DNA of 64,000 nucleotides from Sulfobacillus thermosulfidooxidans (GTDB lineage Bacteria > Bacillota > Sulfobacillia > Sulfobacillales > Sulfobacillaceae). Shown here piece by piece: positions 6,610 to 35,232 of this stretch (position 1 is its first letter; each line of letters begins with the position of its first letter). The notes beneath the pieces were generated by a model. That model made no database searches and was not told the origin of the DNA. It saw nothing but the letters and a program-made list of their open reading frames with translations. Where the stretch lies: positions 2,542,001-2,606,000 of the forward strand of contig NZ_LGRO01000001.1 of NCBI RefSeq assembly GCF_001280565.1, written 5' to 3'. The position numbers and the translations under genes were made by a program.

Positions 6610-6909
6610 ATGCATTTTGTCATCTGGGCGTACGTCACCTATCTCCTCACATTCATTTTAGGAGTGGTGTTCTTTATACGCTTTGATTTAAAGAAGAAGA
6701 AACTGCCACCCAGCTTTTTGGCAGTACATTTTTTTCTCACCGTGATGACGTTTATCTTTTTTAGTTCAGCGATGGCCCCTTATCTCAAAGAACAATATGG
6801 GCATCCTACAGTTAGCACGGGAGTACACAGCTCAAACTGGTTGAATCTGGAACGGCATGATCATATGTTGCACCAAAAATCCGTTATCCCGCCAAGTAAG
6901 GGGGCATGA
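6610..6909 (+). CDS. Small two-helix membrane protein, first of a tandem paralogous pair
   Basis: This 99-residue protein has two predicted membrane helices (residues about 2-20 and 32-52) separated by a basic loop (DLKKKKLPPS), then a polar His-rich tail. ATG 6610 follows AGGAAGGTGAT; a GTG at 6583 upstream overlaps no ribosome site. The core is recognisably similar to the next gene: a TYLL/TYLI helix, a basic-Pro turn, a His, then a TFIFF/TLVFF helix. Its stop overlaps the next start (ATGA), so the two are translationally coupled. Family unknown; it may act with the adjacent divergent CuA-like lipoprotein. Confidence 0.6.
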   Translation: MHFVIWAYVTYLLTFILGVVFFIRFDLKKKKLPPSFLAVHFFLTVMTFIFFSSAMAPYLKEQYGHPTVSTGVHSSNWLNLERHDHMLHQKSVIPPSKGA

Positions 6910-7085
6910 CGATGACCTTATTAGAATGGACTTATTTGATTTTTTTGCTAACCGTCCTAGGAGGAGCCGTCTTATTTTTCGTCTATTTGCTTCCTAAACG
7001 CAATTTCCCATTGGCATGGGTCATTACGCATTTAGGTTTAGCCGCGATCACGCTTGTCTTCTTCACCGTGGCCATTTTTCATTAG
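6906..7085 (+). CDS. Small two-helix membrane protein, second of the pair (59 residues)
   Basis: This gene overlaps the previous one by four bases (ATGA). The product has two helices (about residues 5-29 and 37-58) joined by a PKRNFP turn. It looks like a shorter paralogue of the upstream protein without its polar tail. A second in-frame ATG at 6912 is an alternative start. Function is unknown; the pair could form a heteromeric membrane unit. Confidence 0.6.
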   Translation: MTMTLLEWTYLIFLLTVLGGAVLFFVYLLPKRNFPLAWVITHLGLAAITLVFFTVAIFH

Positions 7086-7134
7086 ACTCCCCCTTTTTTG
7101 TGATTCGAAAAATCCTTGTGGTGTTTGAGAAGAT

Positions 7135-7165
7135 GGGCCGGTTATGACGCAACCGACCCTTTTTT
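7135..7165 (+). terminator. Rho-independent terminator after the small membrane protein pair
   Basis: GGGCCGGTT (7135-7143) pairs with AACCGACCC (7151-7159), with one mismatch, and is followed by six T. It separates the mini membrane genes from the permease gene that starts 55 bases later. Confidence 0.8.
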
Positions 7166-7220
7166 ATGACCTGAAATCGAGATTTCAAGGCAAGTCAAAA
7201 AGACATCTGAGGTGAACATC

Positions 7221-8810
7221 GTGGACCGATCTTCGTTAAAGCATGAGTTACGTTTGATTGATTTGGTCATGGCATCTTTAGGCGGCATTATTGGTTCGGG
7301 GTGGTTATTTGGGGCATTATATGCCGCCAATGTGGCAGGCCCCTCTTCGATTCTCTCATGGGTTATGGGTGGAATTGCCGTCATTTTCATTGGATTAATT
7401 TTTGCTGAATTAACAGGAATGCTTCCCGAGTCGGGTGGTGTCGCCCGTTATCCCCATTATTCCCACGGACATTTAACGAGTTTTATCATGGGATGGGCGA
7501 TTTGGATTGGCTATGCGGCCAGTCCGGCGATTCAAGCCGAAGCCATGGTGCAATATAGCGCTCATTACATTCCCGGCTTATTTAATGCAACGACGAATAC
7601 CATCGAGCCGCCCGGTCTTTTATTGGCAGCTGTTTTAATGTTCTTATTTTTCTTGATTAATTATTTTGGAGTGCGGTCATTTGCCCGGGTTAATACCCCA
7701 TTAACGTTAATCAAGTTTATTATGCCGACACTGACTATCATCGTATTTTTAGCCACGGGGCTTCATTGGCATAATATGCATGTGCAACATTTTGCCCCCT
7801 ATGGCAGTGCCGGTGTTCTCCAAGCGATTGCCACCTCGGGTATTATTTTTTCATATTTAGGATTTCGCCAAGCGGTAGATTTGGCAGGCGAGGCAAAAAA
7901 TCCCCATCGCGATGTGCCCCGGGCGATTATGTTGTCGATTGGGATTGGCATTATTTTGTATTCACTATTGCAAGTGGTTTTTATTGCGGCGGTACCCACT
8001 GCACAGCTTCGGCAAGGATGGGATCATCTTGCTATGGCAGCACCTTTTGCCCAATTGGCGGTGGGACTGAACTTGGGCTGGGTAGCCGCATTGCTCTATG
8101 CTGATGCGATCATATCGCCGACAGGAACGGGTAATGTCTATTTAGCCTCTACCACCCGGGTTCTTTATGCGATGGCGGAAAATGGCTATTTGCCAAAAGT
8201 GTTGGCTAAGGTCGACCCGAAAACCGGTATCCCCGTGGCCTCATTAGTTTTGGCGTTTCTGTTAGGGTTATTGTTTTTGGCCCCGTTTCCGGCATGGAAT
8301 CAACTGGTCAGTGTGATTTCCTCGGCCACGGTTCTCACCTATATTATGGGACCCATTTCAGCCGCCGTGTTTCGTAGGACAGCGCCTAATGCCCCCCGCT
8401 TTTATAGAGTGCCGGGGCTATCTATTGTTGGTCCTGTGGCTTTTGTGATGGGATCTTGGATCATCTACTGGACTGGATGGAATGTCGATTGGAAACTGCT
8501 ATTAGCGATGTTAGTGGGGGTGCTCCTTTATGCACTGTTTTCCTGGCTCTTGCCGGAACAAATTGAGCGGCCCTCTTGGCGTTCGGTGAAAGCAGGAATC
8601 TGGCTGGTTGTGTATTTGATGGCGATGTTAGCCATGTCCTATGGCGGGTCCGGCCGCTTTGGTTCCCCCTACAACCATCACAAAGGATTGATTCACTTTC
8701 CTTATGATTTGATTGTGAGCGCGCTTATGTCCCTGGCTTTTTATTATTGGGGCGTAGCCAGTGGCTACCCGACGCCCCAGTTGACAGAGGCTTTAGGACA
8801 TCCTGAATAA
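7221..8810 (+). CDS. APC-superfamily amino acid permease
   Basis: This 529-residue protein has about 12-14 membrane helices. The first helix carries LVMASLGGIIGSGWLFG, the APC substrate-binding GSG region, and FSYLGFRQAVDLAGEAKNP is a typical amino acid transporter segment. It should import or exchange amino acids across the cytoplasmic membrane; substrate is not predictable. GTG 7221 is chosen because TGAGGTGA lies about five bases upstream; a GTG at 7212 sits inside that site. A clear paralogue is encoded on the other strand at 29306-30967. A universal stress protein gene follows. Confidence 0.88.
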   Translation: MDRSSLKHELRLIDLVMASLGGIIGSGWLFGALYAANVAGPSSILSWVMGGIAVIFIGLIFAELTGMLPESGGVARYPHYSHGHLTSFIMGWAIWIGYAASPAIQAEAMVQYSAHYIPGLFNATTNTIEPPGLLLAAVLMFLFFLINYFGVRSFARVNTPLTLIKFIMPTLTIIVFLATGLHWHNMHVQHFAPYGSAGVLQAIATSGIIFSYLGFRQAVDLAGEAKNPHRDVPRAIMLSIGIGIILYSLLQVVFIAAVPTAQLRQGWDHLAMAAPFAQLAVGLNLGWVAALLYADAIISPTGTGNVYLASTTRVLYAMAENGYLPKVLAKVDPKTGIPVASLVLAFLLGLLFLAPFPAWNQLVSVISSATVLTYIMGPISAAVFRRTAPNAPRFYRVPGLSIVGPVAFVMGSWIIYWTGWNVDWKLLLAMLVGVLLYALFSWLLPEQIERPSWRSVKAGIWLVVYLMAMLAMSYGGSGRFGSPYNHHKGLIHFPYDLIVSALMSLAFYYWGVASGYPTPQLTEALGHPE

Positions 8811-31831: not shown

Positions 31832-32425
31832 TTAGGGCACGAAGAATTGTAAAAAGGGCCGGGGATCAGGATGAAACCGGCTCAAGGGTTCTTGAGGGGG
31901 CTTGGGTCTTGCGGTGTCAAAGACACCTTGCCGAAACGATACCCAGATCTGCGCTTCCTCTTTACTCGCACAAGATTGGATAGGGCGGGAACTTAAAGAC
32001 ACTTTGGCTTTTAACAGGGCCTCAGATTCATTGCGCAAAATTTTCAATATCACTGGATGAGTAGGTTTAAAACCTGTCCAGGCAATGAATTGTGAAGGTA
32101 GAGCATTGTTACGGGAATGATTGCAAGACCGGCATGCAATCACACAATTATCCAAGGTGGTTCGACCACCCCAGGAAATAGGGAGAACATGTTCCAAAGT
32201 GGATCCGGGACCGTGACACCATGCACACGTAAATCCATCACGTTGGCGAACTAACCGGTAAATTTTCCGGTAAGCGAGAGGACGGTAATTAAGATGGAGA
32301 ACACCGTCGATGAAGCGCGCTAAACCATCACGAAGATTTTGCTCCGCTTTTGCCCAACTGCACGGTGATAACATCTGTCCCCGCAAATCGACGACCGGAA
32401 CTTTATCTAGGACCGGCTCCTCCAT
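31832..32425 (-). CDS. HNH endonuclease domain protein
   Basis: This 197-residue protein has an HNH nuclease domain at about residues 58-115: RDGFTCAWCHGPGSTLEHVLPISWGG...NCVIACRSCN, with two CxxC zinc ligands and the LEHV His of the beta-beta-alpha-metal motif. Similar single-domain HNH proteins are common in Firmicutes chromosomes; roles include restriction, repair or mobile elements. The C-terminal part is Pro-rich with no recognised domain. AAGGAGGATTCC precedes the ATG. No methylase or phage genes are adjacent. Confidence 0.85.
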   Translation of the reverse strand: MEEPVLDKVPVVDLRGQMLSPCSWAKAEQNLRDGLARFIDGVLHLNYRPLAYRKIYRLVRQRDGFTCAWCHGPGSTLEHVLPISWGGRTTLDNCVIACRSCNHSRNNALPSQFIAWTGFKPTHPVILKILRNESEALLKAKVSLSSRPIQSCASKEEAQIWVSFRQGVFDTARPKPPQEPLSRFHPDPRPFLQFFVP

Positions 32426-32663: not shown

Positions 32664-34157
32664 TTATCCTTGCCGTCTGATCACGGTTAATTTGTTTTGA
32701 CTCACGGCATTGGCGGCATCGAAAAACAATTTTTTAGCGCGCTGACCCGAGAGCTCTGCCCATTCTATCGCCGAGACTAAAGGTTTGAGCGACTCAAGTT
32801 TTTGCCATTCTTCCAAAAAATGACTTTCCGCTCCGCCGCTGCCAAAAATGAGACGACTGGGACCTAAAAGGCTAATAGTGCGTTGTAACAACTCTACAGA
32901 AAGCAAAGAAGTTTCTAAATATAATTGGGGATAGCGGCTGGCTAACATAACGACTTCGTCCCAAAAGGGTGACATTGTTCCTGCGTGTACCATGATGACG
33001 GGGACATCGGGAATTTTTTGTAGGAACTCATCCCAAAAAATGGGCGATTCCCATCTAAGCGGCATGGGACCAGGTCCGGTATGGATAACAACAGGCCGTT
33101 TAAATCGGGAAATCACGGGGGTAAGAGCCAATACTTCCGGATCATAGGGGAGATGATGATGAAGTGCTGGATAAAGGTAGGTTCCGGCAGCTCCCTGTTC
33201 GAGAAGAGACTCTAGTTCCCCACTCTGACCCGGGATGCCCGGAGCTAAAGCCAGCCAACGGGGATTGTCTTGGGCCACATGCAATAATTGCTGGCCAATA
33301 TGCGAAGGTTCATGGGTCATTAGAGCGCCCCAGTCCAGCAAAAGTTTTTTCTCGGCCTCCGGCTCAATGGCGCGTTTGGGGTGGCAGGCAAGGCCCGGGG
33401 GGGCGGAAGTGAGGGGAATATAATACGAAACATCGGTTACGCCTAGCTGGATTAAGGGAGCTTGGGGGTCCTCGGTTAATAATAAGGTGGGTTCTTCGCC
33501 CGCCATGCTGAGAAGGCGCCCTTTATGCGAAATCACCGCGCCACCAATATAATTTTGCCCCGCAAAACGCCCGAGTAATGGGGATACCATGACCGTGCCT
33601 TGAATATCCAAACTATGACGGATGGCTAATTCTTGTAGCTGGTTGCGCTCTGCAACATTGCGGGGACTTGTCGCCATCACCACCATATCGGGTTGATAAC
33701 TGCGAGCGTTATCCCATAAGTCGCCGTCTAAGGCGTCTAAACCGAGTAAAATCACGAGACGCCCAAAACGGGTATGAATGACGGAAATACCCGATCCTGG
33801 CTCAAACCAAGGCCGTTCTGTGGGGTGAAAGATTATTTTGGCTTGCGTGCCCACAATCGTTCCATCTTGTTCGATAACGAGCCCTTTTTGTTGTTTTTTC
33901 ACGGATTCGTTATCTAGAACCCTCAAACTGCCAGTGATGATCATGAGCCCAAGTTCACGAGCCATAAGACTTAAATTATTGGTAAATCGATTAGGAATGA
34001 CTTCTACAGGATTTAATCCAAGAAACCATTCTGGAAACACAACAATCTCTGCTCCCCGGCTCGCCGCCTGGCGAATGCATTCCACAGCCCGTGTCAGAGC
34101 CTTGTCCAACTCCCGCATATAAGCGATTTGGCAGATGGCGATGCGTGGAATAGACAT
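32664..34157 (-). CDS. Degenerate carbon-nitrogen hydrolase fused to a degenerate amidohydrolase-2 domain
   Basis: Residues 1-250 of this 497-residue protein have the nitrilase-superfamily fold: IAICQ start, Glu43 in VVFPEW and Lys107 in TQAKIIFHP. The nucleophile Cys is missing: VILLGLDAL has Gly139 where ICYD is expected. Residues about 255-490 resemble the TIM-barrel amidohydrolase-2 family (VVIHTGPG, VPVIMVHAGTM, RLIFGSGG). That half lacks the N-terminal HxH, and the usual FGSD aspartate is Gly. Both active sites thus look damaged, yet the frame is intact. Start 34157 follows AAGGGGGAA. An intact nitrilase gene lies just upstream on the same strand (55-base gap), probably in one operon. 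Confidence 0.75.
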   Translation of the reverse strand: MSIPRIAICQIAYMRELDKALTRAVECIRQAASRGAEIVVFPEWFLGLNPVEVIPNRFTNNLSLMARELGLMIITGSLRVLDNESVKKQQKGLVIEQDGTIVGTQAKIIFHPTERPWFEPGSGISVIHTRFGRLVILLGLDALDGDLWDNARSYQPDMVVMATSPRNVAERNQLQELAIRHSLDIQGTVMVSPLLGRFAGQNYIGGAVISHKGRLLSMAGEEPTLLLTEDPQAPLIQLGVTDVSYYIPLTSAPPGLACHPKRAIEPEAEKKLLLDWGALMTHEPSHIGQQLLHVAQDNPRWLALAPGIPGQSGELESLLEQGAAGTYLYPALHHHLPYDPEVLALTPVISRFKRPVVIHTGPGPMPLRWESPIFWDEFLQKIPDVPVIMVHAGTMSPFWDEVVMLASRYPQLYLETSLLSVELLQRTISLLGPSRLIFGSGGAESHFLEEWQKLESLKPLVSAIEWAELSGQRAKKLFFDAANAVSQNKLTVIRRQG

Positions 34158-34212
34158 GGATATTCCCCCTTGTACTAGGAATATCATACCTTAAAAGACA
34201 AATTTTGGCAAT

Positions 34213-35232
34213 TCAATCCTGCCAGCGAAAATGCACAATATCTTCGGAAGAGGGTTCGGGAGCCACGAAAGAACTTTGTGCCAGGATTTGGGCCCGCCCG
34301 TCCACCCGGCCATAGATGGCAGAGGGACCATCGAAATGGATGTCTAAAGCGCGAAAGAGCATTTGAGGATTGATAATCACAGAAATATTCTCGAAGGTTT
34401 CCAGCAGGCTAAAAGCCCCTTCCTTTGTCCATTGCTGTTGGCGAGTCATCTGGGGATTAAACGGCCAGGGTTCTGTCCACCACCAGGGGTTCGCCGAGGG
34501 TTGGGCAATAATGCGTACACCTTCTTGATCCATTAAGGGTAGGAGCGAGGTAAACTGGGGCTCTGAATTCGTATGGGGAATGCGGAAGCCGTCGTAACAA
34601 ATGGCTGTTGCACAGGGAATTCCTTCGATCAAAACCGGTTCAAGAGCTTCGGTTAAAGGTCCCGGGGAGAGATCTAATACATCTTCTTGAGTGGGAACTA
34701 AATTCACTTTGCGGGTGATATGAATCACCTCGCCTAAAGGATTGAGTGTCATGCTCAGATTAAATATGTTTTTGCTTGCCGGATGAAATCTTGCCGATTG
34801 CTCACCATAGGCATTCATGGGCAATAAGGCGCTGCCCGCGACAATATAGGTGTGGTACTGGCGGGCCAGCTCACGCATGGTCGTATGCCAAATCCGCCAA
34901 ACTTTGGGGGCATTCAAAAGAAAAAATGCCTGGCGTAATGACAGGGTTTGGTACCTGAACATGGTGCCCAATAAAGACGGCCACAGTTTTTGGCCTATGC
35001 GAGAAAAGGCTTGGGACATGGTCTTTGTTCCTTCGATGAGATGCAAGCTGTCTGCAAGCACTAAGAAAGTGGCTAAGTCTTCCGGAAAGACTACCAGTGC
35101 AGGAACATCATCCTGTCTAAATACAGAGACCTTCTGTAATAAAAGATCCATTTTGTGGTAAAATGTGCTTACATTGGCATAATCGCTGAGATCCATGTAA
35201 GGTTGCACGGCAAACATATCCAAAACAGGCAT
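34213..35232 (-). CDS. Carbon-nitrogen hydrolase (nitrilase superfamily), intact triad
   Basis: This 339-residue protein has all three catalytic residues of the nitrilase superfamily: Glu51 in VVFPEDLA, Lys175 in TRKVNLVPTQED and Cys212 in TAICYDGF. It should hydrolyse a nitrile or amide, or transfer acyl groups; substrate unknown. Insertions around residues 60-120 are longer than usual. Start 35232 follows AAGGAGAG; the longer frame to 35286 runs into the divergent kinase region. It is cotranscribed with the degenerate fusion gene and may act with it. Confidence 0.85.
   Translation of the reverse strand: MPVLDMFAVQPYMDLSDYANVSTFYHKMDLLLQKVSVFRQDDVPALVVFPEDLATFLVLADSLHLIEGTKTMSQAFSRIGQKLWPSLLGTMFRYQTLSLRQAFFLLNAPKVWRIWHTTMRELARQYHTYIVAGSALLPMNAYGEQSARFHPASKNIFNLSMTLNPLGEVIHITRKVNLVPTQEDVLDLSPGPLTEALEPVLIEGIPCATAICYDGFRIPHTNSEPQFTSLLPLMDQEGVRIIAQPSANPWWWTEPWPFNPQMTRQQQWTKEGAFSLLETFENISVIINPQMLFRALDIHFDGPSAIYGRVDGRAQILAQSSFVAPEPSSEDIVHFRWQD

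Follow-up and report, generated by a model that had tools for sequence, protein, structure and literature searches.

The described families closest to the protein reported here are the nitrilase superfamily (PF00795), with its omega-amidase/Nit2 and Nit6803-like branches, and Amidohydrolase_2 (PF04909), exemplified by 3cjp and 3irs. Pseudoenzymes are well known among kinases and proteases, and no paper on a pseudoenzyme in the nitrilase superfamily was found in the open-licence literature searched. NitFhit and glutamine-dependent NAD synthetase likewise combine a nitrilase domain with another domain, but unlike in the Sulfobacillus fusion their nitrilase domain retains the Cys and the other domain is active. 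Related papers are PMC9913352 and PMC3376133. The fusion of Sulfobacillus thermosulfidooxidans resembles the nitrilase superfamily in its N-terminal half, where the Glu, the Lys and a fourth active-site residue, also a Glu, are conserved, but it has an invariant Gly for the nucleophile Cys, carries an attached barrel and scores far below every NCBIfam cut-off. Its C-terminal half matches the TIM barrel of Amidohydrolase_2, but lacks the first, HxH-bearing strand, does not conserve the later His residues and has an invariant Gly for the Asp.

The fusion gene is located in the window, i.e. the whole stretch of 64,000 nucleotides that was analysed, and is preceded on the same strand by the gene of a second nitrilase-superfamily protein, here called the partner, with an intergenic gap of 55 bp (Table 1). 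Both genes lie where the first-pass annotation had placed them, and the residues it had listed, Glu51, Lys175 and Cys212 in the partner and Glu43, Lys107 and Gly139 in the fusion, were found again.

Table 1. Positions of the two genes and of selected fusion codons in the window.
Feature	Position	Strand	Length or conservation
Partner, nitrilase-superfamily protein (Glu51, Lys175, Cys212 invariant in 34 relatives)	34213..35232	minus	339 aa
Fusion, Cys-less nitrilase-type N half (about aa 1-245) and truncated, metal-free amidohydrolase_2 barrel (about aa 270-480)	32664..34157	minus	497 aa
Fusion Glu43 codon (general-base position)	34029..34031	minus	invariant in 36
Fusion Lys107 codon (triad lysine)	33837..33839	minus	invariant in 36
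Fusion Glu114 codon (fourth active-site Glu)	33816..33818	minus	invariant in 36
Fusion Gly139 codon (nucleophile/Cys position)	33741..33743	minus	invariant in 36
Fusion FGSGG, aa 438-442, at the place of FGSD in amidohydrolase_2 relatives	32832..32846	minus	S440, G441, G442 invariant

Residues 5-136 of the fusion match the CN_hydrolase Pfam profile with an E value of 1.7e-15 (57.5 bits against a cut-off of 23.2), and the homology of this half to the nitrilase superfamily is borne out by matches to the same profile in 35 of 35 members. In a profile alignment Glu43, Lys107 and Gly139 fall opposite the catalytic Glu, Lys and Cys of the solved nitrilase 1f89, in agreement with the Gly previously read at the Cys position. 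The fusion motif TERPWF aligns with HERxxW of 3wuy, which holds the fourth active-site Glu of Nit6803-type nitrilases and here corresponds to Glu114, a feature absent from the first-pass annotation. Together with Asp141 these four residues are invariant across 36 full or near-full fusion homologues, down to about 40% identity. The Glu-Lys-Cys triad is thus incomplete, with Glu and Lys invariant and Cys replaced by Gly in 36 of 36, and because Gly139 is invariant no relative with a restored Cys is present among these homologues. Nor is there a conserved Cys column anywhere in the fusion in the alignment of the 36, indicating that no shifted thiol can serve. The AlphaFold models of the fusion and the partner are poor (pLDDT 51 and 57, respectively) because only few input sequences were used, and the N-terminal half of the fusion, where the alpha-beta-beta-alpha fold and dimer of the nitrilase superfamily would be sought, is barely covered by fold matches.

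The nitrilase half, which comprises 260 positions, holds 37 of the 48 invariant positions of the fusion. Gly, Pro, Trp and Phe account for many of the invariant positions, which is in line with residues conserved for folding only, in a structural or moonlighting scaffold without a ligand; this explanation is nevertheless very improbable, as all three charged positions of the active site are invariant though only 37 of the 260 positions are. A Glu-Lys-Glu set kept beside a fixed Gly is what a binding pocket that has no nucleophile should look like, and favours a ligand-binding pseudoenzyme. The suggestion of ligand binding comes from the conserved residues, which could themselves be kept for folding.

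The C-terminal half shows homology to amidohydrolase_2 both by profile and by barrel match. The Amidohydro_2 Pfam match covers residues 311-440 (E 8.6e-14) and is found in 31 of 35 fusion members, and this half of the fusion model, of modest confidence, superimposes on 3cjp (Z 14.9, rmsd 3.6, 210 residues) and on 3irs (Z 14.4, rmsd 4.5, 222 residues). The site of a metal hydrolase, which takes HxH from strand 1, His from strands 5 and 6 and Asp from strand 8, is not present in the barrel. The first-pass annotation had noted that HxH and the Asp of FGSD are lacking, and both are indeed gone, with the correction that HxH is missing because the first barrel strand is absent altogether and not mutated; in the alignment to free-standing Bacillota relatives the barrel of the fusion starts past it. 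The metal-Asp position is occupied by Gly441, within FGSGG, in all 35 fusions with residues there. Of the 36 homologues, 29 retain His359 and 19 retain His391, and none has restored metal ligands. Free-standing barrels from other Bacillota retain IDxHxH together with FGSD or FGTD, indicating that the loss of the metal site in the fusion is derived.

The fusion is specific to the order of Sulfobacillus and is more than one odd gene. It was found in 37 of the 42 genomes of the order, Sulfobacillus thermotolerans included, and its hosts are acid-loving bacteria. Searches of the remaining 112 genomes of the class gave no fusion, and in two samples of the phylum (299 and 398 genomes) full-length matches came from the order only; the other matches span a single domain, a free-standing barrel in most cases and a nitrilase domain in some. 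Carriage on plasmids was considered and rejected, with one weak barrel match only. A search for the same domain order and gene pair in other genomes had been proposed with the first-pass annotation, and both proved to be conserved through the order.

Selection on the fusion is strong and purifying, in keeping with the earlier proposal that its intact frame of 497 codons is maintained. In genomes with a partner its dN/dS ranges from 0.025 to 0.17, and it lies below that of the partner in every comparable pair, with 0.051, 0.025 and 0.050 against 0.143, 0.091 and 0.151 in the unsaturated pairs, and 0.166 and 0.124 against 0.180 and 0.140 in family f2; several further genome pairs were set aside because their dS is saturated. 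Constraint acts on both halves, and no sign of relaxed selection was seen where the gene pair is intact. The highest value, 0.30, belongs to a pair of genus g9 (L080, L081), two genomes without a partner gene; this hints at relaxed selection on the fusion in that genus, and despite it the pseudo-active-site residues are unchanged. The catalytic damage is therefore old and selected. Decay of the fusion was rejected as an explanation, since dN/dS is far below 1 and the pseudo-active site is invariant.

Constraint that exceeds the partner's, and the essentially invariant Glu-Lys-Glu set, Asp141, Ser182 and Ser440, might also be expected of an active enzyme with a Cys-free chemistry, either by Glu43, Lys107 and Glu114 (e.g. 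with an activated water) or at a site in the FGSGG loop of the barrel. Such an enzyme is quite unlikely, as the fusion has neither a conserved Cys nor a metal site and no precedent was found in the open-licence papers searched. Strict conservation across the order despite the lost catalytic parts indicates that the role of the fusion is probably non-enzymatic, for example ligand binding or regulation. We give about an even chance to the reading that the fusion is a ligand-binding pseudoenzyme with no strict need of the neighbouring nitrilase, although the two may work together. An ancestral nitrilase-type domain would have lost its nucleophile by a change of Cys to Gly and been joined to an amidohydrolase_2 barrel whose metal site was lost with the HxH strand and by a change of Asp to Gly. 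The nitrilase pocket appears to have been retained, with Glu43, Lys107, Glu114 and Gly139-x-Asp141 invariant, and would most likely bind a ligand of amide, nitrile or carboxylate type, with no hydrolysis by the Cys mechanism. The fusion would then have a role in regulation or as a scaffold, perhaps for the adjacent nitrilase, a likely but non-obligatory functional companion with which it may be in contact. A more specific version, in which metabolite sensing by the Cys-less pocket would govern the adjacent active nitrilase and the dead amidohydrolase barrel would be a docking or second-ligand module, is unlikely. If the fusion is a pseudoenzyme, a fixed change of Cys to Gly with Glu-Lys-Glu kept and a second dead domain, beside an apparently active homologue, would show a non-catalytic use of the nitrilase pocket.

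The partner is apparently an intact, active nitrilase-type enzyme, judged by its invariant triad. Alone it scores slightly below the Pfam cut-off for CN_hydrolase (21.2 against 23.2 bits), and 34 of 34 relatives match the profile at E<0.01, the best at 6.6e-13. A true partner is present in 35 genomes of the order, in 33 of them together with the fusion. The two genes are on one strand and within 402 bp in 27 genomes, 3.9-7.5 kb apart in four (G004, G016, G019, G021), and on different contigs in G009 and G002, in the latter both at contig ends. The linkage of fusion and partner is thus real and old. It had been proposed that the two proteins form a complex of a catalytic and a scaffold or regulatory subunit. 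The conserved gene pair and domain order uphold part of this proposal, but an obligate complex, in which the fusion would be a subunit without catalysis that supports or regulates the partner nitrilase, is rather doubtful. The conservation of the pair and of its gene order in three families of the order, the invariant partner triad and the peak of fusion dN/dS in the genome pair without a partner all speak for it. It does not fit with the fusion occurring without a partner in four genomes (G008, G010, G015, G023), with the partner occurring alone, with the stand-alone relatives of the partner or with the lack of specific rate coupling. The partner gene of G010 (L076, about 6845-8027) carries stops and gaps and is a pseudogene, while the downstream fusion is intact and has acquired 5 polarised changes, compared with 9 in the sister genome G019. 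The partner is found without the fusion in two genomes, G036 and G018, of which G018 is only 83% complete, some assemblies being incomplete. In the branch-rate test the covariation of fusion and partner rates (0.37, 0.57 and 0.30) was no stronger than that of fusion and control in three control sets. Partner relatives outside the order, with about 28-34% identity, belong to other families of the phylum and have varied neighbours and no fusion. The genomes that have lost the partner or the fusion are natural controls.

Other genes in the window around the pair encode an HNH endonuclease, two histidine kinases, a response regulator and a 279-aa protein. No neighbour follows the pair everywhere, and no pathway is therefore claimed. 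Scans for promoters and terminators gave counts close to those in shuffled sequence. The HNH endonuclease gene (window positions 31832-32425) is directly downstream of the fusion, and the same gene cluster occurs in 22 loci of the order. A urocanase gene (hutU) is located divergently beside the partner in 13 genomes (L059, L063, L064, L066, L074, L083-L090), and ORFs farther away read, from their sequence only, as an arginase-family enzyme, a spermidine synthase and an arginyl-tRNA synthetase. This hutU is of a higher-scoring type than the hutU elsewhere in other genomes, with hutI on another contig. The adjoining urocanase suggested the pair as a replacement for imidazolonepropionase, which was rejected because a true hutI is present elsewhere in most genomes with hutU and the pair persists without hutU. 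Close to stand-alone partner relatives from other families (L103, L106) are genes whose sequences suggest methylthioadenosine phosphorylase and further enzymes resembling those of methionine salvage, which may hint at the substrate of the partner. Downstream of the fusion in G008 (L062) there are ORFs with repeated peptides of the RGDRP/HARGST type, typical of a translated CRISPR array.
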